A stretch of 64,000 bases of DNA, taken from contig JAULBX010018857.1 in assembly GCA_032358255.1 (NCBI GenBank), forward strand, positions 230,190 through 294,189. The letters are read 5' to 3'. Source of the stretch: Heterotrichella gracilis (Eukaryota; Sar; Xanthophyceae; Tribonematales; Xanthonemataceae). Made by a program: the position numbers and the translations under genes. The notes beneath the pieces are model-generated. The model saw nothing but the letters and a program-made list of their open reading frames with translations, was not told the DNA's origin and did not search any database. Positions 62-63,993 of the stretch are shown piece after piece; the stretch's first letter is position 1, and every line of letters starts with the position of its first letter.

Positions 62-3000
62 TCAAGCGCTCTCAATCGCCTTGACGCACTCCCCCACGGG
101 TTTGCCGTCCCGCATGGCCTCCTGCAGCGCCGCATACTCCTTCTCGTAGCTCTTGAGCAGGCTGGCTGCCTGGTACACAGCCCAGCGTGTGACGTTCTGC
201 TGCTGCGCCCCCGACAGCTTGTTTGTGCTGCGGTTGAGGATGCGCTGCAGGTCCGACAGATCGGCGGTCTGGCCCATGACCTGCAAGATTAAAGGCGGTG
301 GTTAGGATTTGCTATACAGTATCGTCTATACCCTAATAGGGTTGATGCGCTGCAGGTTGGCGGTCTGGCCCAAGACCTGCAAACTATAAGGGGGGTTTAA
401 GGTTTAGGGTTGAGGATGCGCTGCAGGTCAGCGGTTTGGCCCATGACCTGCAAAATGAAGGGGGTGGTTGGGATTTATTATACCCTAATAGGGTTGAGGA
501 TGCGCTGGAGGTCAGACAGGTCGGCGGTCTTGCCCATGACCTGCGCACACAAAACAGGCGGTTTACTTACATGCACTTGCCTCGCCATGCAACTGGAATT
601 ACCATATAATTGAACATTCTTTCAAAGACTTTTAAAATCCAAGACCTTTGACAACGTTGTGGAGTTTAATGCAATGCAGCAATAAAATGTACTGAATCAT
701 CTGGAATGTAAGTGCTGGAAACCCAACTTGTGATCTACCAAACAACCCTCACCTCCTCGTATTTGACCGCCTCCGACGCCGCCCCCGCCATCGCCACCAC
801 CGCCAGCGCGTTCACCTCCTCATCCGACAGCTGGCGCTGGAACAGGCGCTGCTGCAGCTTGGCCTCGAGGAAGTCGACGTGCGCCTGGCCAATATCCAGG
901 GAGTAGCCAGTGATGGGGCAGCCAAGGAGGTAGCCCGCCTGGGGGTGGGGGTGGTGGGTTGGGTGGGTACGGGTGGATGATGGGGTTGGGAGGGGAAAGG
1001 ATGATGGCGGCTGGAGAAAAATGTAGGTGGGTAGGAGGTATGGTACTCATTAAGTGCTTAGTTTACTGCACATCGCAACCCCATGTTCACTCCCTCTTGA
1101 CCCCATAATTCATAACCTGCCTCTCTCTGCACCCACCAACCCCAAACCCTCCACACCTAACAGTGCGCTGCCTCGTGTCCCAGCACCCTGTATCGCACGA
1201 TACCTTGACACCCCCACAACACCCTCCACCCTGAATCCCAAACACCGCCTCATGACCCAGAACCCATTTCCCTCACCGAGGTGCACCTTAAAACCTAAAC
1301 CCTGCATTCTGCATTCCACCCACTCACCAGAAAGTGCGCGGCCTCGTGTCCCAGCACCCTGTCCCTGTAGTCGGGGTACACCTGCGAGAACTTGTCAATG
1401 ATGACGGACAGCAAGCCGGGTGCGGTGGAGCCAATGGCCAGCACCACCAGGCTGATGCCGCCCACAAGGTAGGGTACAAAGAAGCCCTGCGGGAGGGGAG
1501 AAAATGAGCAGGGTCGAGAGGGGCATGGTTGCGTGGGAATAGTAGGAATGGCCATAGGAGTTACATTAATATTGGCGCCGCATGTGCAAGGCAGACTGAT
1601 AATCTGGCTGTATTGCTGGAATGCTGTAACTAACTAGCTGACTATTTACATTTGTATGTGGGTGGTTCAGATGAGCTGCACAATGAAGTGCTCATATGAC
1701 AACCATATTTGAAATAAGCCCCTGCCATTGCCATGACCCCTGGCGGAGATGTGTCAATGATTGATGCCATGCAGGGGGATGGTGGAGAGCATGGCTGTGC
1801 AAGTGACGGACTTGTTGGGTTTCAAGCCTTGTGCCTGCACAAACGCGGCAGACACACATACTATCGCACATCCCTGGAAACATGAGGTTACCAGCGCTCG
1901 AAGCTGCCATAAGGTGGGCACAAACATTGACAATGACATGGAAGGCGTATTTGATGGAGTGGCCATTGCATTATACTGACCCTACACGAGTTAGCCACGA
2001 CATGCACACGTCCGGACATAGCATGCTTACCCAGTCCCCGGGCAGGAAACCACCTGCCACTGCTACCACCGAGGTTGTGCCCACCACAGTGACCAGGAAA
2101 GCCATGTCGTTGCGCACGCTGGGGCGGCCAATCTTCTCAGGGTCCTGAAAAACAGGGGAGCAAGGGTGAGAAGGTGGCTGTGCAAAGCACAGGCCAAGAC
2201 CCTAAGCGGTGGCACGATCAATCATTTCTGGGGCCTGGTAACAGGGGAGCAGCGAGCGCGTGGCGCGGGGAGGCAGCGGCAGCAGTGCGGTGCAGGCCAC
2301 AGGCCAAACCCTAAACCCTAACCATCAACACCTGCTACCTGCACGCCAACCCTCCTCAGCTCATACAGCACAAGCCTTGGGCCATGGAAGCAACCAAGCC
2401 CTGTACATCCCTAACCCTAACCCTAACCCTTCACATTGCACATAACCCTAAACCCTTAGCACGGACCCTGAACCCTCCCCACCTGCACGCCCACCCTCCT
2501 GAGCTCGTACAGCACCACGTTGCGCCTGTCCATGAAGGAGCGGTTATCCAGCAGGGATCCCCACTTGGGGATGCCGCCGCTCTCCTTGAGGGCAGTGAAG
2601 GCGCTCAGCACATCGCTGGAGGCATCAAACTTCTGCGCAGGGTGGAGGTGGGTTAGGTACATGCATTCCAGCAAAACAGTACAGCCAGGTTAGCAGTCTG
2701 TCTTGTGGGGGTGCAAGGGTGGTAACATATGTCCTGGTGGGCGGCTGTGGTTTGAAAGCATACAAGGCGCACTACTGCTACCCTCCAGGGTGTGGAGGGG
2801 AGAGTAACAGGGTTCAAGCGTGGTTGAGGTTTGAGAGGTGGTGGGTTGAAGGACGGAGGATGCTGTTATGCATGCTTGACTTCCTCCAAAAATGCTGTTG
2901 ATGAGGTGTGTGGCGGCGTACATTTATAAGTCTTAGGGTTTTGGGTTTAGGGTGGTGCACGTGCGCGTACCACAGAGGGTGGCGCCTGCTTGACATCCAG

Positions 3001-3237
3001 CAGTGCGTCCTCAAGCTGAGTGAACAGGGCGCCTGTGTCTTGCGCTGATGCGGGCTGGGGTGTGCTGGCCTCCGCTTGTGCTTCACACCTGGTGACACCA
3101 CCTGCCTGCCGCAGGCTGGGGCTGTAGCGGTGGGCTGGGCCGGTGCGGAAGGGGGTGAATGCCTTGCTGGGGCGCCTACTGGGGAGGGCTGCTGGCTGCA
3201 GGACTGCTTGGCTGGTATGGCTGAGAGTGAACGCCAT
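62..3237 (-). CDS. Chloroplast M41-like membrane peptidase without AAA domain
   Basis: Six exons on the minus strand: 3237-2971, 2632-2483, 2144-2031, 1486-1328, 938-753, 280-62; every junction is GT-AG and the frame is continuous (364 aa). The start is the ATG at 3237, which opens a basic, Ser/Ala-rich N-terminus typical of a plastid transit peptide. Exons 3-4 encode two hydrophobic segments. Exon 4 ends with the zinc motif HEAAH (about residues 224-228) and exon 5 continues GYLLGCPITGYSLDIG. Exon 6 carries QTADLSDLQRILNRS and an NVTRWA segment. These match the plant FtsH-like M41 family that lacks an ATPase domain (At5g27290/VIR3-like, by my recollection). The protein is probably a thylakoid or envelope membrane metallopeptidase; the HExxH is intact, but activity and substrate are unknown. 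Introns 2, 4 and 5 hold copies of neighbouring exon edges. It is head to head with the nucleoside transporter. Confidence 0.88.
340..546 (-). repeat. Three echoes of the exon 6 acceptor edge
   Basis: Intron 5 of the M41-like gene contains three degenerate copies (340-385, 408-457, 493-546) of the sequence spanning the acceptor and start of exon 6 (real copy about 235-286). The spacers contain telomere-like pieces such as GGTTTAGGGTTG and CCCTAATAGGGTTG on the plus strand, so CCCTAAA-type in the gene's sense. The third copy has lost its acceptor: the second base of CTGCAG is changed in CTGCGC. Confidence 0.85.
1161..1193 (-). repeat. Echo of the exon 4 donor edge
   Basis: A copy of the last bases of exon 4 of the M41-like gene (real copy about 1331-1370) lies in intron 4. 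The shared core is CCTCGTGTCCCAGCACCCTG. Confidence 0.7.
2331..2372 (-). repeat. Echo of the exon 2 donor edge with telomere-like repeats
   Basis: A copy of the exon 2 end and donor (real copy about 2481-2522) sits in intron 2. It is separated from the real copy by CCTAACCCTAACCCTAACCC-type repeats at 2405-2430, with more heptamers at 2308-2322. Confidence 0.7.
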
Positions 3238-4126
3238 TGTGCTAAGTAGGTGTGGTTAAGTAATTGAGGGGTTGTGTGGATACAGATGAAACGCTCTTGC
3301 TGTGTGAGCTGGTTGTTGGTGTTGGTGTTTGGTCGAGTGGCTGTGGAGTGGGGTTCTGTTCCAGGGTTGCTGAGGCACCACCAGGAACGAACTGTCAATG
3401 GCACACCAGGTGTATGGGCTGTGTTTACTAGTCGAGCACTTCCTCAGTCGCGATACAACCAAGAGGTATGAATCGGTGACAAGAAGTCCAAACCACGAGT
3501 ACACTGTCCTATTTGGGCAGGTATATACCTTGAGCACTTGGTTCACTGAGTTCTTCGCTATCTGATCAACGAGCTAGATATGTGACGGAAATATCCGGGT
3601 TAACTAGCTAGTGATGGCTCTTGCTGCACGGTTTTGCAGGCTTTGCTGTCCATGCTGGTTTGTGGGCAAAAACAGGTTTCTAGAGTCTGCAGTCACTCTC
3701 AATTGCCTGTGGGCAGTCGAGAAACAATGACGTGTCCATCTGTCGTTTGACCTTTCGTGATGACGAGGTGACGATCATGCGACATGTGGCATCCTTTCGC
3801 CCTCCCACAATGCATGCATATAAACGCAGGTTGGCGTGTGGAACACCATTGCAAAACTCGTGCAATGCGTGTGCAATTGGCACATGCAGACGACCTCTTC
3901 TGACGCAGGTTGTGGCCCTGAATCTCATATTGATAACTGCGCATAATACCTTATGCATGTACAGCTTTGAACAGCTCTCTACTAAGCAACAACAGCAGCC
4001 ACTATGTAGGCCCAGCCGGGACGTCACACGCTGTGTCAACCCAGAGGCTCCAGGCCCTATGGGCAGTCCTTAAATAAGCTCGAGTGAAAAATAGGGGCGG
4101 ACAAAGACTGTCCATCAACAACCAAT
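3238..4126. promoter_or_regulatory. Divergent intergenic region, M41-like and nucleoside transporter
   Basis: About 890 bp lie between the start codons of two head-to-head genes. I see no convincing exon here. Open frames exist on both strands but they have no family resemblance and their composition is like the surrounding non-coding DNA. The region should contain both promoters and 5' UTRs; no clear core element was recognised. Confidence 0.5.
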
Positions 4127-7100
4127 ATGGCGTTTGTCGACCGTTCAACGCTGTGCTTCTTCTTGCTGTCGGTGCGTTCTGCCACCCTTTCATAGCTTGG
4201 CGAATACCTGTGCGAGGCCCAACACAACAACTGTAGACATAGATACCCGTAAGGAGTGTTATGAAAGTTCAGGCAATAAGTCCTGCCTGGTAGCCAGCAC
4301 CTGGCACGTGTGTGCGCTAAGATCACTACTTTTGAACTCGATTCAAAACACCGTTTGCAAAGTGCTGCTTGCCACACCATTGCTGGTGCCAACAGTTGGT
4401 TCTTTGCATCCCACTGGTGCAACCAACACCTTTATGGCTGCCCACTTGCTCGCAAAATGATTGGTGACACCAGTGAGTCTTTGATAGCTCGAGTCCCTGT
4501 GCAACCCAACACATACATGGTACCTCATAGCTCCATATGCACCTCGTGTGCGCGGCAACCTCTCAGCACTACTGTGTCCTACCAACCCTGTCTCCAAATC
4601 TATTTCCAACACTGCACACAACCCTGGCATTTCCTCCTCAGTAAGTAACCTAACCCCCTGCTTGCGCTCAGATCGCATACACCGTGGGGTGGACCACCAT
4701 ATCATCGCAGCTGGGCTACTACAAGGTGCTGTATGGGCCGGGAATCCTCCTGCAGCTCAACATCGCCTACTTCCTCCCCTCCATACCCATACTGCTCTGC
4801 CAGCAGGCGTTTGACGAGTATTTCGATAAGGCATGCGGCGTAAGGCGGGCCATGCTGGCTCGATTCTTTGTAGGTGCGCGCAGCCTCAATGTCACTGCAG
4901 TACATTATCATGCCACCATGCTGAGTTGTGCGTATAGTGACTTTACATGCCATTATAAACTCCATGGAAAGTCAGAGTTGGCTGAAAATGCCCCAATCCT
5001 AGAGTTTGCAGTCATGGACTTCACAGGAATGCGTGAAGTACGATAGTGCGTGTCCGAGTACCACCTTACACCTGGTGCAGGGTTTGGTGGCAGCGCCTTG
5101 ATCACCGCGCTCTTCCCGCTGCAAGCCTCCAGCCTGCACCTGCTGGTGGCAAGTACAGTGACCCTGGGCCTGTGCTGCGGGGTGGCATTCGGGTGCTCCT
5201 ACGAGCTTGTTTCTCGCTTCCCCGACAACAGCAGCGTGGCGCTCAATCTAGGTAGGGAACCTGTCCTACTTACGTTCTAACATGCGTTTCAGCCTAGGTG
5301 GAACTGAGCGCCAGGCATTGCCACCACTCGCGTGTCTGCAAAGCCCGCCACGGTGCTTATATACCACAGGCAATACATGGATCGGCGCCAGGCAATGCAA
5401 CCACTCAAGGGGCCTGTATTGCATGATAAACCTCCTTGCATGTGCATATATGGACCAACTGGCTTACCAGCCCTTCCCTCCCCTGCAGGTTTTGTATGCA
5501 GCGGTCCCCTAGTCCTGCTATTGGAAGCTGCCCTGCGCATCGGTCCTCGGCCCCAAGCCAGGCAACAGGTGGTCTTGTTCGAGGGGGTGGCGGTCCTTAC
5601 CCTCATAGGGTTGGTGGCCGCCATGGGGGTGCTTCGCAAGGTGGCCCCAGAGGAGGTGGAGGTGTTGGACTTGGCAGGGGAGGGGCCAAGGGAGGCGGTG
5701 GATGGGTGGGCGGGGGAACGGGGAGGGAGCTTCACGCAGCAAGGCGCAAGGTGAGGGGCGGGCGAAGGGTGAGGGCCAAGGGTGGCAGTGGTCAGGAGCC
5801 TGTTGTGCTGTGCTGGCGGGTGCATATTGGGGCTAAGGAGTAGTTGTTGAAAGTGAAACTTGGGTGCTGGAGGGTAACACAAGGTGATCAGTGGGAGGTG
5901 GATACGCCATTTATATAATCTGGGAGATTATTTAGACTTGAGTTACATCCTATGCAGTTTCTGTGATTTTTCATGGTGCATATTTTTGTGAGATGAATGC
6001 AATGCAATGCCTTTCCGACCCATTTAGGCCTGGTGCTGGTGCCCGCAGGTACATGCCCCGCATTGCAGCAGATGGGGCATCTCCCACATACAGGTGGGGC
6101 CTGCCCACCTACTTTGACCCAAGCACGCCCCATGCGGCGGGGTCGCCCAACGCACTGGACGCCTCAAAGCGCCAAGAGGAGAACGATGAACAGGAGACAC
6201 TGGCGTTGCTGCAGGTATGGGACAGGGGGATGGCACTTGCTGTTGTCTTTGCGAACCCTCTTCTGTATACGTTTATTTACACAACAAACAGTTACTGCGG
6301 ATTTATTGAATTCGTGTACGTTTTTGTATCTGTTGGGTATAAAGTTAGGTGTGTCAACACTGAATCTGCGATGAAACAAATACTTCCTTCACTATTTCTG
6401 TTTTGATACATTTGTACTTAACTGGCACTGCACCTGATGACAGCGCAAACAGCATCGTATTTCCTGTAATTTGTTACATTCTTAAAAATACCGTGATGTT
6501 TCTATTACTGGGGTTGCTGCAGCCGGATGACAGCGCCAGCAGCAGTGCGGGCTCATCCGATGCCAGCATCTTGGGAACCAAGGCTGTGATCCGGAAAGTG
6601 AGACCCTTTGGAGTTGCGCTCTTCCTCAGCGTGGTGACCTCGGTGCTCCTGTTCCCCTTCTTCACATACATACCCACATGCGGGACCTTTGGGGAGATGC
6701 TGCCACAGGTGAAATCACATGCATGGCAACACCCTGTGTACCACCACGCGCACTACAGTTACCACGGGGGTCGTGCATCCAGTTGGTCTGGGCCCCACAT
6801 CATAACAGGCTCCCACACTGATGTACAACCCCTTGCCCTCCAGGTTATCTTTGCGGTGCCTGAACCTAAGCCTTAAACCCATAAGTTGTCTTTAAGCCTA
6901 ACGCCTCAACCCTAAATTACTCCGCAATTGCCCCCGCAGGTCATGTTTGCGGTGCGCGTTCTGAGCGACATACTCGGGCGCGTGGCCCCGGCGCGCCTGC
7001 GCACCCGCTCGCCGCGCGTGCTGCTCGCCCTGGCCGCCCTCAAAACCGCCACCACCCCGCTTTTCTTCCTCTACCTGCTCCCCCTGTGGCCCAGCCACCG

Positions 7101-7404
7101 GCGCAGCGACGCCTGGATGATGGCCTACGTGGCCTGCCAGTGGGTCCTGTCTGGGTACATCAACACGTGCGCCTACATCGCGGCGCCGGCGTCGGTGCCG
7201 CGGGGCGCGGGGCAGCGCGTGGGCGGGGCCATGGCGCTGCTGTTCCAGCTGGCGTGCCTGGCTGCGCTGCTGCTGGCGGTGCTGGTGGAGCATCTGCTTG
7301 TGCAGTTGCAGCCTGCGGCGGGGGCCAGCAGAGGGGTGGGCGAGTACCATGAGATGGTGCATGCCATGCTGACGCACGGGGCGGTAGTGCACCAGGGGCG
7401 ATGA
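4127..7404 (+). CDS. Equilibrative nucleoside transporter (SLC29/ENT family)
   Basis: Seven exons: 4127-4171, 4672-4873, 5081-5251, 5489-5750, 6049-6214, 6523-6708, 6940-7404; frame is continuous across all six GT-AG introns (498 aa). The tiny first exon (15 codons, MAFVDRST...) splits transmembrane segment 1 and restores it when joined to exon 2. The protein has many hydrophobic segments and a hydrophilic loop (about residues 210-300) between two bundles. Family features include the TM1-like GWTTISSQLGYY, the late segment with D-x-x-GR (SDILGR) and a GYINTCAYIAAP block resembling the TM11 region of ENTs. It would move nucleosides or nucleobases across the plasma membrane or a vacuolar membrane; substrate and location cannot be read from sequence. 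Introns 5 and 6 carry exon-edge echoes. Confidence 0.85.
6430..6457 (+). repeat. Echo of the exon 6 acceptor edge (nucleoside transporter)
   Basis: The segment containing CCTGATGACAGCGCAAACAG resembles the start of exon 6 (CCGGATGACAGCGCCAGCAG at 6523). Confidence 0.6.
6835..6866 (+). repeat. Echo of the exon 7 acceptor edge (nucleoside transporter)
   Basis: CAGGTTATCTTTGCGGTGCC at 6841 is a near copy of the real acceptor and exon 7 start at 6937. The spacer carries degenerate CCTAA-type heptamers, including CCCTAAAT at 6910. Confidence 0.75.
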
Positions 7405-8671: not shown

Positions 8672-11600
8672 TCACACCTTGGAGTAGCCGTCAGCCCCAT
8701 GCGGACCGCTGTAGGGCGGCGCCTGTGGGGCATACCCCGAGGGCTGGCCATAGGGCTGGCCCGGGTAGGGCGCAGGGGGAGCGCTGGGGTACCCAAACCC
8801 TGGCTGCTGCCCCGGGTAGGGCTGCTGGTGGGGGTGGGTGTAGTGCTGCGGGGGCATGGGGTACTGGCCCTGCTGGCCTGAGGGTGCCCCGTACTGGATC
8901 TCCCCACCTGGCTGCTGCACAACTGCGCCCACGGGCACCTGCGCGGTGCACAACCACTCCTTCAATGCCATGGTACCTCAAGGGCAACAGTGTACCAGCA
9001 ATGCAACATCGCCCCCCACCCCCACCCCACCCTCCTCACCTGTGCAAATACCTGGTGCGCCTCAGACCCCCACATTCCACCCCCTCGCGGAGTGCAAGCA
9101 CTGGGCAAGTAAACCCTAACCCCAAATCCTGCAATGTGAAGCTGTGCAATCATGGCACAGCGCACCCAGCATGCACATGCATATGCAATCACCCCACCTG
9201 TGCAAACACCTGGTGCACCTCCACGCGCGTGACTGCCTGCGTGTCCTTGTCCATTGCGTAGCACATGTACACCGCGTCAATCACGTTGAGCAGCACTCCG
9301 CTGAAGAACATGAGCACAACCAGCGACAGCACAAAGGACAGGCCGCCCACGATGCCCGCCTCCTGCAAGAGGGGACAGCGAGAAAATTTGGAATGGAGGA
9401 GAGGATGGCGAATATGGGCACAACCAGCAACAGGCCAATAGAGAGGACAACCACGACGCCCGCCTCCTGCAAGGGGAGGAGGGTAATTTTATGAAGATGG
9501 CGGAGCGAACCATGGAGAGAGCAGGGGATGGAGAGGACAGGAGGAGAGGCGAGAGTTGCTTGCCGCTGGTGATTTTAGGGGATTCACAAGCATGCCGCAC
9601 GCGCACTAGTGTCACAGCCTTGAAATGCTGCCATATCAAATCCCAGATGCCCGAGAAAGACGCCAATACTGCATGCGTTGCCCCGAAAAAATGCACCTGG
9701 TCAAGGACAGACTACAAACTAATCTGAGCTCAAATCACAAAGATGCATATTCTAAGCTGATTTGTTTCTACATCATTTTCCCGTCATGAGTTTTCTCCAT
9801 ATCGCTCCTTTCAGGCAATTTGTCAAATAACCACCAACCCACTCACCATGTGCGCATTGTTGTGGCGCGAGAAGCCCAGGTAGCTGAGCCCGTAGATGGC
9901 CATGGCACCCACCACGCTCAGCGCAAAGGAGCCCAGGTTGAGCACCATGGGCGGGAACCACCACACCCCATAGGTCTTGAGGAAGTTGCGCGCCAGGAGC
10001 GAGGTGGCGCTGCGCCCCGCGGCGAAAAAGGCCTCCCCAGTGATGGCCATGCGCACCGTGGCAAACTTTGTGATGAACTCGATGAGCGCATACACGCAGG
10101 TGAGGAGCAGCGAGCCGCATGCAATGAGCAGGTTGTCGCCGCCGCTCTCTGCGCGCTTCTCCTTAGCCCTGTTGGAACAGGAAAATATTACAACTTTATC
10201 AACAATTAGAGGAAGAGGGGATTTCTCATGCAGGATCAAAACTTTTGCATAGCATTTGCATTGTCATGCAGCCATTGCGTGACGGTTGCATAAGGAGTGA
10301 GCCCCCTGAACCAAAGTGCCACTACGGGCATGGGAGAATGCTTCCTCCCATCTACAGTAATGCTTTGCTTCCTCATATTTTGCCCGTGCACGATGATGCT
10401 ATGCCAGGAATAGATGGCAAAAATTGCGCATTCCTTCCTTACTTTTCCATTGCCTGGCGCGCCATCTGGACCAGCGTGAGCACCAGGCTGCCCAGCGACA
10501 GCGACCCAAAGTTAGGCCCCATGGCGTGCCTCACTGATCGCATGGTTGCCCCCTTGGTGGTGGTCACGCCCTGGGGCTTGAAGTACCACTGCGCAATGAC
10601 GCCCGCAATGACGTACACGCGGATCTGCGAGACACACAAATATATATAAGTATCCAAGCATATTTGTGATACAACAAGCAGGAAAAGCAGCAGATATTGA
10701 CGATCAGACGTCTGCAGTGCGCACAGTCCACGGCAAGGTAAAGGGCCTAGTTACCCTAAACCCTTAACCAAACCCCCACAGTGCGCATGGTAGTCCACAG
10801 CATGGTGAAGAGCTTGGTAAACGTAAACCCTAAACCTTCAACCCTAAAGGCATACCTCAGCGGTGAGCATGATGGTCCACAGCATGGTAAAAGGCCCGAG
10901 GCTCATGTATGCCATGGCCCAGTCATCGGGCTGCCACACGCAGCAAGCCACAGGCTGCCCCTCGTCATCCACGCACTGGCTCCTGCCCTCGCGCGCACCT
11001 GCGGGGAAGGGGCGAGAAGGGTTAATGACATGATTACAATCACTGTTATAAGAAAGGATCTCATGAAATCATGTGCACAGCACCGGCTTAGGGGTTGTAA
11101 AAGGAGAGAATGAATATAAACAAAACCATGACCGATCACATTTAGGGTTAAAATTAGGGTAAGGGTTTGCCCATAGAGGGCGCGGCGTACCGTTAGGCTG
11201 CACTGATCCGTTCATGTACGCCGCGCCCATCATGACCACCAGCGGCAGCAGCGCCAGCGCCAGCACCAGGTTGAGCAGCAGCACAAACAGGAACAGGCCG
11301 GGGTTGTCGTTCAGGCCGTCGGCAGACACCTTGAGGAGCCGCGCGCACAGCTCAATCTGGCTGCGCCTGCAGGGTTAGGGTTTGTGATTTAGGGTTTAGG
11401 AGCGGGGCGCACAGCTCAATCTGGCTGCGCCTGCAGGGTTAAGGTTTGTGATTTAGGGTTTAGGAGTCGGGCGCACAGCTCGATCTGGCTGCGCCTGCAG
11501 GGCAGTCAGGCGCTATTATTAAGGGTTTAAGGTTTGGGATCTAGGGTTTGGGGCCCACAGCTCGATCTGACTGCGCCTAGGTTTAGGGTTTAGGGTTTTC

Positions 11601-35198: not shown

Positions 35199-40590
<5,392 letters not shown>

Positions 40591-43862: not shown

Positions 43863-44174
43863 GTCGCTCTGTGGCAATACAACCACATGCACTTTGGGTG
43901 TGAGCAGGAACTTCCATGATGACATTATTGGCAAACAAAGCTATAGCATTGGATACATAATACTACTAATGGTCAATAATATTAGAGATCTCGAGTCCAC
44001 ATCAGTCTGGGGGAGGGCATGGCAACTGCAGTACATGCCTTGACACAGCTTGCAATCATGGCAATGGCCAGACTGGGTGGCATAAAATTGATGTTCTCAG
44101 GTTGCAGCATGATGTGAAAACCGGCCATCATGGCCCCATTCCTTGCCCTCCTTGCAAGGAGGCAATCAGCTGCA

Positions 44175-45443: not shown

Positions 45444-48113
45444 TCACCGCTCCGCGCCCCTCGCCATCTGTTCCTCAAACCCGGGTGCAAGGTCCTCGGG
45501 CCCCTGTGGCAGTGAGTAGGTGGAGCCACCCTCCCCGCCCCCACCCGGCGTTTCCAGCGCATGTTGAAACATCTGCGATAGGGCCACACTCACCTGCACA
45601 ACGCAATTCATGGTGTTTAGGATTTTCAAGTACACCAGCATTACCATCCCTTGGCTGGGGTAATGAATGGGGTAAGAAATGCGGTAATGAATGCGGTAAT
45701 TCTATTTAAACCCACCCATGGAATTTAAACTACCGGTTTACTTTGAAATTACAGTAAACCTAGCACTGCCAGTACGGGAACATGTGTGACACACTCATCG
45801 CATGGCTCAGGTCATGGACTCTTTTACATTAAAATTTAAGCTGTATATAACGGCGCTATTTTTCTATATTTTATTATATGCGGCGTTGCCAGGCGCATTC
45901 TGCCACATGTGCCCCACTCACCGCATGGCTCAGGCTCATTGACTCCTGCAGGCGGCCAATGGGTATGGAGCACAGCACGTCACAGGCAGCCACCTCCTCC
46001 GGGGTGAAACCAAGGTCCTCCCGGCCAAACACCAGTGCGATGCGGCCAGGTGGCGGGCTGCCGGTGGTGGTGGTGCTGCTGGTGTTGGTGGTGTTGGTGG
46101 TGTTGGTGGGGGTGGTGGCGGCGGCATTGGTGGAGAGGGGGTTGGCGATGTGGGGCGCGATGGTGTGGATGTGGTGGAGGAGGTCGGGGATGTTGGTGAA
46201 GGAGGTGGGTGCGCCTGTGGGTGGGGGTGGGGGTGGGAAATGGCATGGTTGATGGCGCAGCAATTGTGGCTGCATCGCTGTTGCGTGCCCCAGATTGGTT
46301 GGCACGTGGGCACCCTATCCTGCACAATCCCATGTCCCTTCAATCATCACTAATGGGTACCCTGTATTCCAACATGGGTGTACACCATATGTAACATGGG
46401 CGGATGCACCCAGCTGAACCACATACCCAGCATGACCCCTGTCCCCTAACCCCTAAACCATATACCTAAACCCCACACCCACCTTGCACCCATCGGGTGA
46501 AGCCCACACTGACCATGCACCCCTGCAATGCATCCTCCAGCCGATCAAACACCTGGGCCCTGGGGAAACCACAAACCAGGGTTCAGGTAGAGTTCAGGGA
46601 GGGTCAAGGTTGCTACATCACAAGGCTTGCGTTGATTTCAGAGCATGCACAACTGCTGCAGTGCCACCCATGCCCAGTGCCACCCATGCCCAGCGACAGA
46701 ACTGAAGCATGCACACAGGCAGACTGACCACGTCAAAGAGATGGAAAAGAATTGACCGGAAGTGCAAAGGCACAGAATAGAGCCCCGTGCATCCAAACAG
46801 CCCTGGCCTATCCTGAAGACAGGCCAGCAATGTGTCTTCAGGACAGGCCATGTGCAAGTTAGATGCAGGACTTCTCACCCCACCTGTACAGTATGTATTG
46901 CGCCCCCTTGGAGGCGCTCCTGGAGGTACGCGCTAGGTGGTTGCACCTGGAAGCATTCATGCGCACACTTGGAACTGGCGCTTCAGAAGTAGCAAAAAGG
47001 AGCAAAGAAACAGAAATAGTGAGATAGACCAGCAACAAGATGAGCCACAGGACAGAAAGGCAAGCGACAAAAAATAAACTATTTAGCCACTGCTCAGGGG
47101 TTGCTGGGTTTAGGGCGCTGGGCTCGTACCTGGGAGCCACAATGCGCAGGTCCTCACACTCAAAGCAGCCGCTGGCGCGCGCCACAGTGCCAAAGCTGAC
47201 GGGGCGCCTTGGGCTGAGCAGCACGATGCACACGTTGGCCAGCAGGGCGGGGGGGTCGAGGGTGGGCTCCCACACCAGGGTTTTCTTGGGGCCAGTGAGG
47301 TCCCTGGGAGGACAGTTGAAATTGAAATTTAGGTGCGTCTAGCTGATTCACTGCGGACATTGCAATAAGGCTAAGGGCTGGGGAGAGGATTTTAGTGCGA
47401 ATCCACGTGGCATTGTGGTGAATGCGCATGGCCCATATCGGTGAGCAGGTTCCGCAGGCCCGAGGCGCGATACCATGCTGGAATGTGAACGGAATGGATG
47501 TGAGTGGTGGAGCTCTATTGGGTTCATAGGGGGTATTTCGAGGGATGTTGTTTGGCAGTAGGTATGCTTGAAGCATGTGGTGCAAGAGGTCCGACAATGC
47601 ATAAAACCCTACTTGAAGGACTCCCCTCGGACCGCTCGCTATCCTAACCCTAAACCCTATGTGGTGCAGCAGCGAAACCCTATTTGAATGACTCCACCCA
47701 TGCCGCTTGTTTATCTATACCCTGAACCCTAAACCCTATGTGGTACAGCAGCGAAACCCTTCTTGAAGGACTTGCACCCATGCCGCTTGTTTATCGGAAC
47801 CCTAGGCCCTATGTGATGCAGCAGCGGAAACCTACTTGAAGGACTCCACCCATGCCGCTCGCTGCTCGCTCCCGCCAGACACAAACTGCTTGGACGGCTG
47901 GTTGGTGGCTGCAGCAGTCTCGAGGTCGTTGGGCCTGCCGCTACACGTGGCCGGCCAATGCCTGTGTCCTGGCTGCCGTAGCTGGTGGGGAGCGCAGTAG
48001 CTGTGTAGGTGTCCTGCTGCAGCTGCAAAGGAGAAGTGCGTTGTTTCACGTAGTATGCCTACCCACACGCATGCCAGCAGTACGGCAATAGAAAGCATTT
48101 CAGCCGCGCACAA
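45444..48113 (-). CDS. TrmH/TrmJ-type (SPOUT) RNA 2'-O-methyltransferase
   Basis: Six exons: 48113-47836, 47303-47130, 46946-46884, 46559-46483, 46214-45922, 45593-45444; frame continuous (344 aa). The first ~90 residues are organelle-signal-like and otherwise unassigned; start at 48113 or the Met at 48098. The SPOUT domain opens ANVCIVLLSPRRPVSFGTVARASG (compare family NI..VL..P..P.N.G...RA), then DLRIVAPRCNHLARTSRSASKGA and AQVFDRLEDALQGC. The SAM-binding knot is formed by RIALVFGREDLGF (about residues 255-267) and SMSLSHA (289-295), followed by VSVALSQMF. It probably 2'-O-methylates a tRNA or rRNA, possibly in plastid or mitochondrion. A Thr/Asn tract of about 20 residues (TPTNTTNTTNTSS) interrupts the domain between exon 5 start and the knot. 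Introns 1 and 5 have exon-edge echoes. Confidence 0.85.
45779..45822 (-). repeat. Echo of the methyltransferase exon 5 donor edge
   Basis: A diverged copy of 45905-45945, sharing CGCATGGCTCAGG and GACTC blocks and an ACTCA(C/T)CGCATGG donor region. The GT is altered. Confidence 0.7.
47606..47795 (-). repeat. Three echoes of the methyltransferase exon 1 donor edge
   Basis: Copies at about 47606-47641, 47658-47711 and 47732-47795 repeat the exon 1 end and donor (real 47805-47870). Unit length is about 75 bp with ACTTGAAGGACT and CCATGCCGCT cores. Spacers contain CCCTAAACCCTATGTGGT on the plus strand (TTTAGGG in sense). Confidence 0.9.
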
Positions 48114-48970: not shown

Positions 48971-51900
48971 ATGCCGTCCATCACCAACGTGGGTGGCTCC
49001 TTGACTAGCGCTCTCGCACTCACCCTGCTAGCATGGGGCGTGCGGGCTCTGCGAGAGTTTGCACTTCGCCACCAGCAAGAACGTGAGCTCAGGTCAACGC
49101 GTGGAGCTAAACCTCCGGGCAGGTACTTTGCGTCGTTGACACCGGCTGCGCTGCGAATGCTGGTACGTCTCCGACCGCGGGCTTTGCGCCATACTGCCTG
49201 ATGCACCACTGGCGTTTGCCTGCCCTCAGCACCATGGAGGTGTGCACCATCGTCCGCCCCTAACCTGCAACCTGCAACCTGTAGACCAAGCACCGTGCAA
49301 ACATATGTGCTGTCACATCAAGCAAGCGCACTTCACAGGGTTTCCAACACTTGTGTTTGTCGCCACCACCAACACGACCCACGAGGGCATGGTTGGACAC
49401 CGTTGCCTTGTCGCACAAACACAGCACTGTATTGTACTGCTCGGGCGGCAGGTTGAGACCAGACTTGTGCCCTAAACCCTATACCCTGTGGTTCTTGCCA
49501 CAGTTGAGACCGATTCTGTACCCTAAACCCTTCACCCTTGTCCTGTCACAGGTTGAGACCGACCCTGTGCCCTAAACCCTAAACCCTGCTATTGCCTCAG
49601 GTTGAGACCGACCCTGTACCCTAAACCATAAAACCTTTTCTTCCACAGGTTGAGACCGACCCTGTGCCCCATGTGGTGATAGACATACGCAGCGGGGAGG
49701 ACCTGACTCCCCTGCCTGCCGAGCTGGGCGAGGCAGTGCACATACCAGGCAAGTCTGTACCCTGCACACACTTGACGGCACAGTGGCAGTGCCATAACCC
49801 TTCCCAAGGCCTTCGATGGGCAGGCAATGTATGCATGGTAGCACTGTGTTTGAGCGCAAGATGGATGGAAGCAAAAGATCATCAGGCCGTGGATGAAACT
49901 GTCATTTAATGCCCACAAGAGATTACAGTATCACGTTTAACCCCCCATTTTCTACCCCCACCCTTCCCCTTGTGCCCCGCCCACCCCCCTCCCTTCCCCC
50001 CCTTATAGAGCAGGAGCTGGGTAGCTACCTGGGCGGCGACAAGAGCAGGTGGCAGCAGGCGTGGCCCGGGCGCCCCGTCCCTGACGAGGACTACACGCTT
50101 GTGTTTGTGTCGGACAGCGAGGCAAGCATGCGCAGCGCGGCGTCCACCGCAGCCCAGCTGGTACGGGGTAGTGCACCATGGAATTAGGGATTCACAATGT
50201 GACGTATTTTTGAAGAATAATACGTGTTGCTACATATTTTAGCCCTTTTCTGCAATACGTACACATTATCCGTGAGAATATGTCTATTATCATATCTTGA
50301 GTAATGAAAACGAGTTTGTGTTTGCCACATCAACAGTGGTTATGCCATGTCAACAATAGTACTACAAGCAATATTGCGGCAACCAATTTTGCAATTGGCC
50401 AGGAAACTGACACTTGTCGTGCTGGCCATGGAGGTCATCCACCTATGCGGTCACTGCATGGCGCAACATGCACCACACGGGTAGAACATCTGCATGCATA
50501 CGTACATATGTCCCTGCAGCATGATTAGGGTTTTGAAGGGTTTTGTTGGACCTGCAGGGCTTCATCCGCACCGCCATCCTGAGCGGGGGTCTGCAGGCTC
50601 TCGGCTACAGCTCTCACCAAGGACAGGCGCATCTACGCTTCATCAACAGGTGGGGTGCCAGGGTTTAGGGTCTAGAGTTTCAGGTTTAGGGTCAGGCACA
50701 CATATGGTACATGACCAGGTGGGGTGTAGGGTTTAATTTAAAAGGCCAGGCACACATACGGTATATCACCTGGTATGTCGCCAGACGGTTTTGGCAGGCT
50801 TGCGTGCATGCTGCACAAGTAACGGCCTTGCTATGAGGCAGTGACTGCTGTCGGTCAGGAAAACGGGCACATGCACACACCTCCACCTTGTTAGCACTTC
50901 AGGGATGCTGCTGTCCTTTTGCGGGAACACATCGCCCCTGTGCCCCAACTGGGCAATGCACAATGGTCATGTCACAATGATGCCATTGCGATCATAGAGT
51001 TGATGGATCGCCACGCATCCATTGACTACAGAAAATAATCCAAACCCCCATGTGTTGCTGCCACCCCAGGGATGCTGTTGCCCTCCTGCTGGGTCATGCC
51101 GAGGGCGTGCCCCCACTGTGCAATCAACAAAAACTTCAAGATTCTATTTCACTAAATATTTTTAATTTTTGCTTTGGTTAAATTTCAACGTTGCAATACA
51201 GCAATGGCCATGTCAGAACGATGCCATTGCGATCATCATGTCGATGGATTGGCGATGGAAAAAAATTCAAACCCCCATGTGTTGCTGCCACCCCAGGGAT
51301 GCTGTTGCCCTGCTGTGGGCCATGCCGAGGGTGTGCCCCCACTGTGCAATGCAATGCAGCAATGGCCATGTCAGAACGATGCCATTGCGATCATCATATC
51401 GATGGATCGGCATGCATCCATTGACTAAGGAAAATATTTCAAATCCATTTTGTTGCCGTCATCCCAGGGATGCTGTTGCCCTGCTGCTGGGCCATGCCGA
51501 GGGCGTGCCCCCACTGGGCGGCGCCACAATGGTTGACCTGAGGCGCTACGATGAGCGCGCCATGTATGGCACCATCCCCGAGACTGTGCACCTGCCAGGT
51601 GAGGGAATGCAGTTTTTTTGGGGCCAAAGTGTGGGGCAAGAATGAAGTGATCGGCCGGAAGAAGAAGAATGACGCCGTTTTCATGAAGCGCAGGGAGCTA
51701 TATGTTTTCATGAAGCGCAGGGACTATATGTTAAGAGTTGTACGCATGTTGGCGGTTTACTGCCATTGAACCGGGAACGATACAGGACATGGGTGCTTTG
51801 GTGTGAATGTTCCACACGCCATGGTCAGACAACACGGCAATGAGGGTTTGCTCAGCTGCCATCCAGTTGCTCTGTTCTGGCACTGCCACGGGAACAGCTT

Positions 51901-53066
51901 AATGCAGTCACTAACGCTCCCCATTGCGCCACCTGCAGCCGAGAACCTGGCCAGTGCCCTATCGCTGACTGCGGATGACTGGCAGGCGCAGTATCACTTC
52001 CCCAAGCCAGGCCCCACAGACCTCGTGGTCATGCAATGTAGGTCCCCAATATGTGTATCTGCAAGCACCTACCTCTGAGATCTGTCCATCTGCAATCTGT
52101 ACATCCAGTTCTGTACATCTGCAATTTGTACATCTGCAGATTGCACACAACAAGCATCAAGCGTCACTGTATCGTAACCTGATGACATGCGCCTGTCATA
52201 GCACCTATGCAAGCAGGCGCATGTCATAGCACCTATGCAATCTGGCATCGCCTGGCCAGTGCTTGCATAGGTAGTGGAAAAGCAATACAGGTGCCTAGAA
52301 GCCAGTGCATGCAATGGCCTAGGTGACTCATTGCAGGCCCCGATCCCTGCATCCCCACCCTGGTCACCATACTGCTTCCCCCAAGGCTGCTGCCAGATTT
52401 ACATGAGGCCAATTGCCAACTTAATCACAACCATTACTGCAGGCCTCGTGATCATGATTGCTCCTCTACCGTAACCTTCATTTTTGACAATTACAAATGT
52501 ACTTTTGACCCAGCTTCTGGCCGCCGTTCCCGCAGGCCGCACCAACCGCCGCGCCGCGTGGGCCGCCCAGGTTGCGCAGGACGCTGGCCTGCACTGCCTT
52601 GTGTACCGCCAGGGCGTGTACGGGTGGCGCCTGAGCCCTGCGGTGAAGGTGTACCGCAGCTACGAGAAGTGGGACCCGCCACCCGAGCCAGAGCCCTTCC
52701 AGGTGGGTGGAAGGGTCCCCTCCAGTTAAAACAAGAAACAACAGAAAATACTAAAAAAGGGTTGGAAGGTTACAAGATTATTGACATCAGATTTAGTGAG
52801 CTAACCGGGGCGCACAAGACTGTTGGACGTGCTTAAATACAACTTGAAAAAACTATGACTGATGGTTAAAAAAAGTCCGCTTCTTTTGCTTCCTTACAAG
52901 TGGAGCAGGTGGAACTGGGGGTTGTGCCAGCCCTGTCATGTAGTGTTAGCCACTGCAGGTGGGTACTCATCACATCCTTGTTCATGTTCAGGTGGAGCGG
53001 GTGGATGTGGAGGGTGCCAGACGGGAGCTGGTGGAGCTGGGTGTGGTGCCTTACACTGGCATGTGA
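48971..53066 (+). CDS. Tandem rhodanese-domain protein
   Basis: Eight exons: 48971-49162, 49649-49748, 50009-50160, 50558-50649, 51468-51598, 51939-52037, 52536-52702, 52992-53066; frame continuous (335 aa). Intron 2 has a GC donor (CAG|GCAAGT at 49749). The N-terminus has one hydrophobic helix (about residues 10-26) followed by a basic stretch: a membrane anchor or organelle signal. The first rhodanese-like domain (about 72-180, VVIDIRSGEDLTPLP ...) has SDSEASMRS where the catalytic Cys loop should be, so it is probably inactive. The second (about 195-300) has DLRRYDERAMYGTIPETVHLP and the active loop CRTNRRA with Cys256 formed across an intron. It could transfer sulfane sulfur or act as a persulfide sensor; substrate unknown. 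Two introns carry echo arrays. Confidence 0.85.
49448..49622 (+). repeat. Four echoes of the rhodanese exon 2 acceptor edge
   Basis: Four copies of CAGGTTGAGACCGACCCTGT (starting about 49449, 49499, 49550 and 49599; real 49646), each running straight into ACCCTAAACC/GCCCTAAACCCT. Period is about 50 bp. Confidence 0.95.
50898..51430 (+). repeat. Tandem array with echoes of the rhodanese exon 5 acceptor edge
   Basis: Three degenerate copies (from about 50898, 51063 and 51285) of the acceptor and exon 5 start (CAGGGATGCTGTTGCCCT...) alternate with a non-coding block (CAATGGCCATGTCAGAACG...GATGGATCG) seen at about 50960, 51203 and 51359. The real exon follows at 51468. Confidence 0.9.
52080..52240 (+). 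repeat. Short direct repeats in rhodanese intron 6
   Basis: About four copies of a ~15-bp CTGTACATCTGCAAT-like unit (52080-52145), then a duplicated GTCATAGCACCTATGCAA (52195-52235). Confidence 0.75.
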
Positions 53067-54111: not shown

Positions 54112-57100
54112 ATGTCTGTGGCTGGTTTTGACATTGGCAACGACACCTCGTGTGTCGCCGTTGCCAGGAGGAGGGGCATCGATGTGCTCCTCAACAAGGA
54201 GTCCAAGAGGGAGACGTTCAGCGGCGTGTCCTTCAACTCCAAGCAGCGTCTGTTGGGGACAGATGCCGCCGCATCCATGTCAATCAATCCCAAAAACACC
54301 ATCACGCAGATCAAGCGCCTGATTGGCAGGAAGTTCCAGGACCCGTCGGTGCAGAGGGACATCGCAAGGTTCCCTTTCACCGTCACCGAGGGGCCATCGG
54401 GAGAGTGCCTTATCAACGTGCAGTACTTGGACCAGCCTACCACCTTCACCCCAGAGCAGCTCTTTGCCATGTTGCTGGTAGACCTCAAGTCAATCGCAGA
54501 GGCCGACCAGGGTGCAGCCATCACCGACTGCGTGATAGCAGTCCCAGCTTTCTTCACCGAGCCCCAGCGGTATGCAGTCCTGACAGCTGCTCAGGTGGCC
54601 AACCTGACTTGCCTCAGGCTGCTCAACGAGACCACCGCAACAGCGCTCGCCTACGGGATCTACAAGACGGATCTGCCGGAGAACGACCCGGTGAACGTGG
54701 TCTTCGCCGATATCGGCAACCAGGCGATGCAGGTAAGGCTTTCTGCAGGTGCATGCATATGTTTTGTGCACCGTTTGCTGGCGGCCTGTTCCCCCAGCAT
54801 TTCAGGACATGCCATCTATGATCCAGTGCACTGCCTCACGGAGAACCTGTTCTGGTATTTGTAACCTCTTTATTTTCGTTTGTTTTTGCTGCAGGTGTGC
54901 GTGGTGTCGTACAAGAAGGGCCAGCTGCAGGTGCTGTCAAGTGCGTGGGACGAGAACTTGGGTGGAAGGGACCTGGACGAGGTGCTGTTCGACCACTTTG
55001 TGGACGAGTTTAAGGCGAAGTACAACCTCAACGTGCGTGAGAACCTCAAGGGGAGCTTCAGGCTGCGGGCTGGCTGCGAGAAGGTATGTCCTTCACAACT
55101 CCTGACTCATGCTCCTTGACAGCGCAGAGCAATTGGATTGACAGTCGACAACAGTTGTATATTGGAGGACATAGTTAACTGTTTTAGAGTGTTGAATATT
55201 TAGAGTGTTGACGACGCCCCCTGTCTGTGACTCGTGCAGCTCAAGAAGGTGCTGAGTGCCAATGCGGAGGCGCCCATCAACGTGGAGTGCCTGATGAACG
55301 ACATTGACTTCTCCAGCAAGATGACCCGTGAGAAGTTTGAGGAGCTGGCCGCCCCAGTGATGAACCGGGTGGCGGACGTCATTAAGAGGGTGCGTGCAAA
55401 CGCCGTGTGCATTGTGCTGTCCCTGCCCTGTTTCTGCAACTGTTGCATGTCTGCATTGCACTCTAGTGTTGTGCTGTTCAACACCTTGTGCATGGTGATG
55501 TCTGTATTGCCTGGTGCTGCGCAATGGGCATGGCATTGTCTTGGAACAGCAAACAGACATGCGGGGAGCGTCTGCCTTTGCACACCAGCTCTGTTCTGGC
55601 TTCCCCTTTGTGCTACCAACTGGGTCGCCGATGCTAAATATGGCTCGTGTTTTCTCCAGGCCATGGCTGATGCCAAGCTGGGCCCCGAGGCCATCGGCTC
55701 TGTGGAGGTGATTGGCGGCAGCTCCCGCGTGCCCTCCGTGCTCAAAACCCTGGCCGACTTCTTCGGCAAGGATCCCAGCCGCACCCTCAACGCCAAGGAG
55801 GTGGTGTCCCGGGGATGCGCGCTGCAGTGCGCCATGCTCAGCCCCATCTTCAGGTATGTGTTTGTGTACAATCAGTTGCTGGCTGGGGTCAGCTTGTGGC
55901 CATATATATATTCTGCTACATGCAATTTGAACGCGGCCCGCTACCCAGTTGCTCTGGATCCTGTCGTTTCCAAATTGCCAGCATTAAATAACCCTGTGCC
56001 ATGCGCTGCTTAACCCCGATAGCCAGACAGACATGGCTAGCCGTGCTCATGCTTTTCACCTGTCTGTGTGCAAGGTGAGGGACTTTGAGGTGACCGACTC
56101 ATAAACCCTAAAGCTTAAACCATTAACCCTAATCCCGCGGCACTGTGTGCAGGGTGAGGGACTTCCAGGTGATCGACTCCTTCCCCTTCGGCGTCAACTT
56201 CACGTGGGAGAAGGACGGCGAGGTGACCACCAGCACCATCTTTGAGCGCGGGAGCCCCATCCCCAGCACAAAGATGCTGACGTTCTTCCGGAACAAGGAG
56301 TTCCTGCTGACCGCGCAGTACACTGAGGACTCCCCGCTGCCCACCGGGATGAGCCACTTCATTGGGACCTTCAATGTGGGGCCTTTCAAGGTGCCGGCTG
56401 GCGAGGAGAAGAGCAAGCTGAAGGTCAAGGTCCGGCTGAACCTCCACGGGCTGGTGTCGGTGGAGTCGGTGCAGGTGGGTGGAATGACAAGGAATTTGTG
56501 AGGAGCGGTCTGCTGGCACTGGCATGCCAAGCATGTGACAATAGGTGGTGGCGCAGGCGGGGAATACAAGTACAATGGACATTTGCATGCTTGCCTGGGG
56601 TGAAATGCATGCACCCAGGAACAAGCATCACACCATGGTGTACTGCTGTCCATCACAGGGCATGTGCATGCATCGATTAGTCTTTATGTTCAAGTGCAAC
56701 CTCCAATCACATGATGCATGTGCTACTGGGGCGCTTGGTGATATGCCTGCCTGCAGTGTGGTTGAGGGACCTTTTTTCCCAACTGCTTTTTTCCTAACTG
56801 CATGAATTGTTGCAGCAAATCGAGGAGGAGGAGATTGAGGAGCCCGTGGCAGCACCAGCGGCCGATGTGCCCATGAGCGATGCCACACCAGCGGCTGGCG
56901 GAGCTGCTCCAGATGCAGCGGCGCCACAGGCTGAGGTATGCATGTGCACTCATCCTGGGTCCATTTGATGCATCAACCCACTGCATCAGGTGCATGGGCT
57001 AGGGAAATGCATTGCCTGGTCGCACCCCGGTCTGCTGCACCAACCCACTGGATGACGTGCATGGCCACGCGATTGCATCACCTGGCCGGCTGGTGCAAAG

Positions 57101-62524: not shown

Positions 62525-63993
62525 TCACGCCACCCACTGCCAGAACCCACAGGTTGGGCCCTTGGTACTGTCACAGGAGTAGTAGTACCGAGTGCCCTGC
62601 TGTGCCTGCGCCTGCTGCTGCTGGTTAGGGTTTAGGGTTTTGGGCTTGGCTGCGCGCTTGTCGAGGTAGGCCCGCATGGCCGCCCGCCGCCCGCAGCGGC
62701 ACAGCGGTGCGCGCGCCTCCCACTCCGGCTTGTAGCGGCGCAGGGTGAAGTTGAGGCGCCGGGTGCCGCTGACGGGGTGTGGGGCCACTCGCTTCACTCG
62801 CGGGACCTGCAGCAGGGCAGGTGACAACCCTTGTTAAACAGCACACTGGCACACAAGCTGGGCTGCTGGTTTTGTATGCTACACTGCCGGATGCCAAAAA
62901 CTACAGTGAGAGCAGGGCACGCGCGGCAACCTACTGAACAGCATTACCATCTTATACCTGCTGACAAAACAGATGTTGCTGGTATATAATACATACTGGG
63001 ATAGCCATGCCATGCACCCGCCATGCATTACCTCGTGACGCCATGCCTCCTGCGCCGGCGGCCACATGACGAGAAGCGTGTTGTGCGGCAGCTCAACATC
63101 CACCACGTCAAACTCAAGCGCTAATTGTCCTGCCTTCTGACCCTCGCCTGGTGTGGACCCACCGCGCAGTCCACCTTGCGGTGCGGGGCTGGTGCTGCTG
63201 TCAGTGGTGGGTGTCGTTTCGTGCATCACCCCACTGCCGTTGGCTGGCTGGTTTTGGCTGCTGATGTCCTGTGTGGTGTCATGGGCCACGCTGTCGTTGG
63301 ATGGTCCTGGTGCGGCGCGGTGCAGCCTGAAGGTGCGAGTGGCTCCCAACGAGAGTGACGCGATGATGGGGCGCGGGCCCAGCTTGGTGAGGGTGTCTGG
63401 ATTGCCAAGAGTGTGTGCATGTCAGCAATAAGCAACAGATATGGGCATGCCCATTCCCATGCAATGCAATGTGACATGTGATAAATTGCTCCATGAGTAC
63501 TCAGGGTGGTATGCACCCACATGTGCAATCAACCAAGTCAAAAGCCTTTTTCACTGGCTGAAGTGCATATTTTACATGCGCCCGTTCCACCAAAGTGCAA
63601 CCCGGTAGGCAGGGCATGCATGGCACGCACCCCTCACCTGCATGTGCCCCCACTGTGTCTGAGCCATCCACATACAAGCCCGCCAGGACGTGCGTGGCAG
63701 CCCAGCCTTGCCTGCACAATACACAACACACAGATTCCAGATTGAACCCTGAACAGGATGTGCGTGGCAGCCCAGCCTTGCCTGCGGTACGCAGAACAAA
63801 CCAAAGCTTTAATCTTGGTTGTTTTCATGCTGTTAGTATGTTTGCGTGAAGCACGAGCCCCTGGAAATGCCTTGATAGCTTCCCCTGACATGCCCCATAA
63901 TGTGATATACAGTGGGAGCCACTCAACTGAGTAAGGTTTGTCAGCTGTCTCAGGTCCCCGTGTCGTGCCGTACACACCTCTCCCTATCAGGGC
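62525..63993 (-). CDS. ALKBH2-like 2OG-Fe(II) dioxygenase with GRF zinc finger (5' partial)
   Basis: The 3' exons are 63711-63638, 63396-63032 and 62806-62525; a further exon is likely at about 63993-63865 (GRGVYGTTRGPETADKPYS..., WLPLYITLWGM) but its donor is unclear, and the 5' end is beyond the window. The catalytic HxD (HAD) is assembled across an intron in VDGSDTVGAHA-D, followed by LGPRPIIASLSLGATRTFRLHR. The distal iron His lies in LVMWPPAQEAWRHEVPR, and the 2OG-binding Arg in TRRLNFTLRRY. The C-terminal zf-GRF is LCRCGRRAAMRAYL ... YYYSCDSTKGPTCGFWQW. This arrangement matches plant ALKBH2, which reverses N1-methyladenine and N3-methylcytosine in nuclear DNA. A Ser/Pro-rich insertion (about 60 residues) splits the core, and a telomere-like tract encodes KTLNPNQ within the zinc finger. 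Confidence 0.85.
62625..62640 (-). repeat. Telomere-like repeat inside coding exon
   Basis: GGTTAGGGTTTAGGGTTTTG on the plus strand is in the open reading frame of the ALKBH2-like last exon and translates as KTLNPN in the gene's sense. Confidence 0.85.
63754..63790 (-). repeat. Echo of the ALKBH2-like exon acceptor edge
   Basis: GTGCGTGGCAGCCCAGCCTTGCC occurs both here and at the real exon start (63690-63712, quoted core CAGCCCAGCCTTGCCTGC). This copy has a GCAG acceptor as well. Confidence 0.85.

Follow-up and report, generated by a model that had tools for sequence, protein, structure and literature searches.

Why do the introns of one stretch of algal DNA hold repeated, decaying copies of the exon ends beside them? 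The question is raised by a 64,000-nucleotide stretch assigned to Heterotrichella gracilis (GCA_032358255.1, contig JAULBX010018857.1, positions 230,190 to 294,189; hereafter the window), in which a model reading the letters alone, referred to below as the sequence-only reading, reported introns filled with copies of the adjacent exon edge and its splice site. Such copies of a flanking exon edge inside an intron are here called echoes. The observation is confirmed and extends beyond the window: roughly one-fifth to one-quarter of the introns examined contain decaying copies of the adjacent exon end, splice site included. The two best-scoring matches to one window protein come from Coccomyxa (63-64% identity), and on the matches of this one protein the genome is apparently that of a green alga. 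Among six predicted window proteins, four match Pfam families (choline transporter, ELP3, SpoU methylase, and rhodanese), while the M41-like protein and a short ELP3 tail have no match.

The assembly searched comprises 68.5 Mb in 903 contigs, within which the window lies, and the counts come from a 264-kb sample composed of the window and 20 stretches of 10 kb, chosen by position from contigs already in a telomere-match list and covering 11 contigs. Gene models were produced by a two-strand gene finder self-trained on the window and these stretches, with all splice junctions predicted. After exclusion of introns shorter than 40 or longer than 3000 bases, flanking exons under 30 bases, and models under 150 coding bases, 245 introns with flanking exons were usable, 70 in the window and 175 elsewhere. 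Echoes were called at scores of at least 25 (exon edges), at least 22 (full exons), or at least 20, and the direct-repeat sets (self-BLAST, seams, and exon-masked) were filtered for low-complexity matches.

At a score of at least 25, a copy of the intron's own exon edge was found in 53 of the 245 introns, compared with 0.2 on average for random intron-exon pairing and none for inverted edges; at a score of at least 20, the figures were 67, 1.75, and 1. The alignment of introns to their flanking exons that had been proposed as a check therefore leaves random pairs far below own pairs in this sample. The window is unexceptional at the higher cut-off (12/70 introns, against 41/175 in the other 20 stretches). 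With full exons and a score of at least 22, echoes occur in 16 of 70 window introns, spread over 7 of 14 predicted gene models, and in 48 of 175 introns outside it, from 15 of the 20 stretches; together these are 64 introns with 86 copies of 68 edges, of which 54 have one copy, 11 have two, two have three, and one has four. The earlier tally of nine genes in fifteen was not reproduced by these seven models, and in two models, which seem to be the nucleoside transporter (3398-7404) and RAF1 (31043-34581) of the sequence-only reading, no intron reached 22. All eight sets of copies that it had singled out do hold exon-edge copies: those at 340-546, 11407-11580, 36021-36268, 36637-36760, 47606-47795, and 50898-51430 were recovered by aligning introns to their own exon edges, and those at 40108-40373 and 49448-49622, missed by the gene models, were recovered by direct alignment with three copies each (scores 39/35/25 and 21/19/15), with Tandem Repeats Finder (TRF) and self-BLAST in agreement.

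The copies come almost entirely from the neighbouring edge. Adjacent edges gave copies in 57 of 490 cases and non-adjacent edges of the same gene in 4 of 2926, so that the claim that a distant exon is never copied nearly holds but is not absolute. The further claim that the copies are private to their locus stands for one array, at 11334-11580, which was searched alone across the 68.5-Mb assembly and matched a single place, itself; a second array searched genome-wide matched itself and its own neighbouring exon edge.

The anatomy of the copies bears on how they arose. Sixty-four of the 86 end no more than 3 bases from the junction, and the 48 first copies that reach it have medians of 57 exon bases, 83.5 bases of spacer to the true junction, and a period of 150. 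Among young first copies (at least 88% identity, n = 21), the intron flank is also duplicated in 11, whereas in the other 10 a duplicate of the spacer falls below significance, two of these being borderline and five having 93-98% identity; in older first copies (n = 26), the flank is duplicated in 16. Examples of the tandem class lie at window positions 11367, 35953, and 50650 and in stretch L034, and examples with a near-identical exon part but no duplicated flank lie at window positions 36578 and 37158. Since the flank is duplicated in some copies and not in others, both tandem duplication and filler or templated insertion seem to occur. Pure insertion of exon edges as the sole mode is ruled out by the 11 young copies with a duplicated flank, and pure tandem duplication as the sole mode is ruled out by the 93-98% identical copies with unduplicated spacers.

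The copies also form an age gradient and decay as non-coding sequence. The nearest copy, earlier said to be often the most intact, is so in 12 of the 14 arrays with more than one copy, counting one that is tied at two decimals, and several of these arrays share one exon breakpoint. The nearest copy would be the freshest because each event copies the functional edge and moves older copies inward. Identity quartiles for 94 copies are 0.81, 0.86, and 0.92; mismatches at codon positions 1, 2, and 3 amount to 12.5, 13.0, and 19.7%, and of 165 gaps no more than 17 have a length divisible by three. The out-of-frame gaps together with the codon pattern point to a neutral copy plus synonymous drift of the exon, not to an alternative exon. 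Of 74 copies, 62 keep their splice dinucleotides, the median splice-site scores of copies and real sites are 3.4 and 4.26 for donors and 3.98 and 4.9 for acceptors, and 27 of 64 copies equal or exceed the score of the real site, so that decoy sites are not visibly purged.

We consider these echoes, with a probability of about 0.52, to be relics of small direct duplications across exon-intron junctions that arose singly through local break repair. The repeated local duplication at the exon-intron borders of unrelated genes that the sequence-only reading proposed agrees with the own-edge, inverted-edge, and adjacent-edge counts given above. Each duplication would be direct, with a median period of about 150 bp, and would span the junction; the copy on the exon-body side would stay functional, and the other would join the intron and decay neutrally. 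Each fresh event would copy the current, selection-maintained edge and displace older copies deeper into the intron. Some events may have been purely tandem, with the intron flank copied along, while in others the exon edge and splice site would have been copied with a spacer of about 50-150 bp without detectable duplicate, as might be left by end-joining of staggered breaks with filler or by templated insertion. Junctions would have been struck about three times as often as under uniform placement, and the telomere-type tracts at the seams could be repair filler or pre-existing recombinogenic sequence.

The statement that no described mechanism does this is not supported, because the excerpted text of PMC8355091 reports small tandem duplications from the repair of staggered breaks or paired nicks; there, duplication at breaks with 3' overhangs proceeds via fill-in by CST-Pol alpha-primase and end joining; the same machinery also fills in telomere ends. 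According to that text, overhang breaks yield head-to-tail copies, as here, and the duplications are alike in being direct, local, and tens of bases to about 200 bp in size. The echoes show direct copies adjoining their source (53/245 own, 0 inverted; 57/490 against 4/2926) and units that are either whole and head to tail or accompanied by filler (11 and 10 of the 21 young first copies). They differ from that system, as excerpted, in recurring at the same splice junctions, in their graded arrays and approximately 3-fold junction enrichment, and often in their telomere-type repeats. In our judgement, the echoes stand apart from known duplications in density, junction bias, graded arrays, and telomeric seams, the unusualness of the density being judged from this genome only. 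A literature search did not find a concentration at splice junctions with telomere-type seams in what were mostly titles and the openings of abstracts, so such a description may exist in print.

A different account is that small tandem duplications of the ordinary kind land anywhere in neutral DNA with equal chance and that only the exon-derived ones stay recognisable, through their conserved member. As exons are conserved, exon copies remain recognisable longer than copies of intron DNA, and the rule that the exon edge is always copied is partly a matter of ascertainment. Many copies are old, as the identity quartiles show, and ascertainment is strongest at such ages. Local direct copies (score at least 25) were found for 17.6% of 80-base chunks lying across junctions (n = 358), 10.9 and 10.2% of near and far intron chunks, which include the echoes themselves, 8.1% of exon chunks, 3.3% of gene flanks, and 0.9% of intergenic chunks, for which the control is 0.7%; intergenic DNA thus has hardly any, which speaks against this account. 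Self-BLAST pairs within 1 kb and scoring at least 24 were distributed as 102 exon-intron, 52 exon-exon (those scoring at least 28 mostly from a few repetitive genes), 26 intron-intron, 11 exon-intergenic, 7 intergenic, 1 intron-intergenic, and 4 inverted. With exons masked and introns compared with themselves, 58 direct repeats were found in 30 introns, alongside 11 inverted high-scoring pairs (unfiltered), and 19 of these 30 introns were exon-linked, against 36% predicted by a simulation of uniform placement of like-sized duplications (15390 against 27136; p = 0.0024). The junction excess of about 3-fold in odds, from a small set of 30 introns and a lenient label, thus survives masking, and telomere motifs mark the seams and spacers besides. 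Exclusive specificity for exon edges is not fully supported; what stands is an exon-masked excess at junctions. That recognition by conservation explains the whole pattern is possible but unlikely, and we infer that the bias towards junctions is at least partly mutational.

Several points weigh against the break-repair reading. Twenty-two of the 86 copies miss the junction by more than 3 bases, and 11 of the 30 introns that contain internal direct repeats lack an exon link, as the uniform account would have it. Exon linkage was assigned leniently (up to 30 bp from a copy, or by weak continuation), and the intergenic chunks are few and partly unannotated gene. Each duplication event is read from present-day copies in one assembly, and every splice junction is a prediction. 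A telomere-like word occurs in 36 or 22 of 92 seams depending on the cut-off, and most seams lack it.

The telomere-type repeats between copies, which the sequence-only reading had missed together with the intron duplications unlinked to any exon, call for a closer look. (CCCTAAA)n stands within the first 280 bases of contigs C70, C140, C526, C609, C712, C717, and C770, and on the reverse strand on other contigs, which identifies it as the organism's own telomere repeat. Per 10 kb of the sample, introns hold 11.1 occurrences of CCCTAAA/TTTAGGG, intergenic DNA 3.65, and exons 0.14; the reversed heptamer reaches 1.43, 1.7, and 0.29, respectively. Of 92 seams, 22 carry the telomere word; random places have it in 47 of 460 cases within those introns and in 20 of 534 cases within introns free of echoes. 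Among 47 spacers the repeat is present in 20, and among 940 segments matched by position in 146 (15.5%). Loci were also selected by a telomere 20-mer, taking the first 30 matches in contig order and dropping six near-coincident ones, which left 24, two of them still overlapping; 20 of these lie in predicted introns. An exon echo accompanies nine of the 20, and in 10 the motif is no more than 50 bases away from a junction. A local duplication was found close to 16 of the 24, compared with 96 of 300 random places that were not intron-matched. Across the whole assembly there are about 18,000 CCCTAAACCC decamers, as estimated from the sample, and 1178 exact matches to the telomere 20-mer, well in excess of those at contig ends.

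These repeats would be accounted for if junctions were breakage hot spots repaired with telomere machinery, introns growing as a conveyor of echoes and telomere tracts; this broad view we hold to be doubtful. In its specific form, to which we give still a little less credence, telomerase and CST-Pol alpha would repair junction breaks, the end being tagged, the overhang duplicated by fill-in, and end joining leaving an echo and a telomeric seam. The identity of the intronic repeat with the organism's telomere repeat, as would be expected of telomerase-linked insertion, the intron enrichment of the heptamer, its excess at seams and spacers, and the behaviour of the 20-mer loci all argue for it. 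The excerpted text of PMC2246262 describes telomerase-linked insertion of repeats at mammalian breaks, some with duplication of the flank (6/130 rodent and 4/25 primate loci); the mammalian interstitial telomeric sequences in that text are short, non-terminal telomere-type tracts like those found here, although here the tracts are mostly intronic and beside repeated exon-edge copies. The fill-in of PMC8355091 and the telomerase insertion of PMC2246262, as excerpted, make a telomere-linked version plausible, though not demonstrated.

The positional evidence points both ways. Genome-wide, CCCTAAACCC within 20 bases before TGCAGG (acceptor plus first exon base) gives 792 matches, overlapping ones counted apart, against 19 with the tail reversed, 7 with the telomere word reversed, and 1 with both reversed; in the sample, CCCTAAACCC precedes TGCAGG in 6 of 69 cases and permuted decamers in 5 of 495. 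TGCAGG itself occurs about eight times as often as its reverse, which brings the excess over independence down to about 2-fold. The motif is G-rich at 5' ends and C-rich at 3' ends, but the reversed motif behaves alike, and polarity as proof of end healing is therefore ruled out as compositional. Within 50 bases of a junction, the telomere motif is clustered 2.7-fold and the reversed motif 2.2-fold, so that its clustering near junctions is only suggestive. The majority of seams lack the motif, and the tracts could be older than the breaks; a role of telomerase or CST in echo formation is possible.

It is improbable that the echoes were RNA-templated, with fragments of unspliced pre-mRNA copied into breaks of the same gene. 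Local duplication is largely restricted to genes, and 9 of 21 young first copies run just 2-15 bases beyond the junction, as such templates might leave them; the source, however, is the adjacent edge and scarcely ever another exon (4/2926), and the intron flank is often included (11/21). A function for the echoes, as alternative exons or backup splice sites under selection, is very improbable: the strong copy sites, of which 27 of 64 match or beat the real one, and the intact dinucleotides (62/74, somewhat above the approximately 74% expected at about 14% mismatch per base) would suit it, but the frame is lost and codon positions 1 and 2 vary freely. Coding alternative exons are ruled out, the reading frame not being conserved (17/165 gaps). 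An assembly artefact or a mobile introner family is equally improbable, having nothing in its favour besides repetitiveness and one dispersed repeat family in some introns, while the copies are 0-30% diverged from their exons with graded ages and the singly tested array has no other match in the assembly.

Two further systems may be compared. In intron gain by exon tandem duplication, as described in the excerpted text of PMC2891723, duplicated exon sequence is spliced out, as here, but there a duplicated proto-splice site within an exon makes a new intron, whereas the echoes are copies of a junction already present, placed in an intron already present. The echoes do not show the layout of such gain, in which the 3' end of the intron repeats the end of the upstream exon right up to the acceptor: 47 of the 48 first copies lie no farther than 160 bases from their own junction. 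Short predicted introns fitting intron gain were noted at L048 5030 and L049 9630, probably in-exon repeats split by the model; young exon-to-exon tandem duplications of 93-97% identity lie at L048 4956-5264 and L049 9561-9916 and are either candidates for intron gain or plain in-exon repeats. Introners, in the excerpted text of PMC9860276, likewise affect introns genome-wide, algae included; they form families of similar introns across genes, however, whereas the copies here resemble the neighbouring exon only. The earlier statement that the echoes are not introners is borne out, the same sequence not recurring in the introns of many genes, and an introner or transposon origin is ruled out by the array whose only genome-wide match was itself. 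Dispersed matches within the sampled sequence occur in 24 of 245 introns, the best match being telomere-type in 15 of these. Introns of unrelated genes also share a family of dispersed repeats of about 50-95 bp and 81-93% identity, possibly a small mobile element, at window 1487-2030, L050 4097-4511, and L039 3683-3867 and in L037 and L021.

The origin of intron sequence is an old open question, and here one-fifth to one-quarter of the examined introns hold material of the neighbouring exon, which some arrays preserve in graded layers. Were the process ongoing, comparisons between strains should reveal individual events. The strong decoy splice sites in many introns matter for gene prediction and for splice-site choice. 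A causal telomere link would tie a telomere pathway to intron growth, and if the telomere machinery itself is responsible, intron-length evolution would be driven by a telomere-linked repair pathway.

Within the window, the echoes are distributed over both strands. On the minus strand, three 3'-splice-site echoes (344-405, 408-483, and 492-562), separated by telomere-type words, lie in intron 281-752 of the gene that the sequence-only reading called M41-like. Two 5'-splice-site echoes follow at 1146-1191 (intron 939-1327, score 31) and 2306-2383 (intron 2145-2482, score 40), and a 3'-splice-site echo at 9410-9505 (intron 9363-9846, score 44). The choline-transporter-like gene, also on the minus strand, holds the tandem array at 11334-11580, with a 64-bp unit and 94% match by TRF, in which the true exon edge (11334-11366) is followed by 3'-splice-site echoes and telomere-type spacers. 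The 5'-splice-site echoes of exon 47836-48022 at 47604-47796, in the SpoU-methylase-domain gene, are likewise on the minus strand.

The plus-strand ELP3 gene (35199-40590) has seven introns with echoes. An array of 3'-splice-site echoes with CCCTAAA-type spacers (35989-36309) lies upstream of exon 36310-36577, and two 5'-splice-site echoes of the same exon, with TTTAGGG-like spacers, lie at 36633-36787, the nearest being 98% identical across 51 exon bases. Exon 36925-37157 has two 5'-splice-site echoes (37218-37253 and 37398-37467), the nearest of them 97% identical, yet with its 60-bp spacer unduplicated. Further 5'-splice-site echoes are those of exon 37774-37888 at 38021-38124, with the intron flank also duplicated, and of exon 38264-38455 at 38530-38625, and a 3'-splice-site echo of exon 39394-39560 lies at 39245-39331. 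The last ELP3 exon, starting at 40402, is preceded by three 3'-splice-site echoes (40113-40149, 40206-40258, and 40326-40362) that reach 53 exon bases in one and 37 in two, with CCCTAAA-type tracts in between; the gene finder mistook an echo (40206-40268) for this exon.

Four more loci lie on the plus strand. A 49-bp-unit array of the 3'-splice-site edge of the rhodanese-domain exon 49649-49748 occupies 49449-49648, with CCCTAAACCC-type spacers; TRF gives 4.5 units, counting the true edge, and alignment gives three copies. Three 3'-splice-site echoes of exon 51468-51598 lie at 50888-51467, with identities of 96% (nearest), 94%, and 71%. Weak echoes were found at 52902-52941 (intron 52703-52991, score 22, ending 32 bases before the junction) and, for a 3' splice site, at 56064-56120 (intron 55854-56152 of a gene named HSP110 by the sequence-only reading, score 30, exon part 22).

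Three other repeats were noted in the window. In the intron at 32675-33556, a 59-bp direct repeat resembles an exon end followed by GTAAGT and may be an overlooked exon together with its echo. At 43042-43863, several copies of 72-81% identity recur with a period of about 230-250 bp and repeat exon-like segments of a single predicted gene. At 30333-30803, outside predicted genes, intergenic DNA holds two nested and recent duplications of about 80-87 bp and 98-99% identity.

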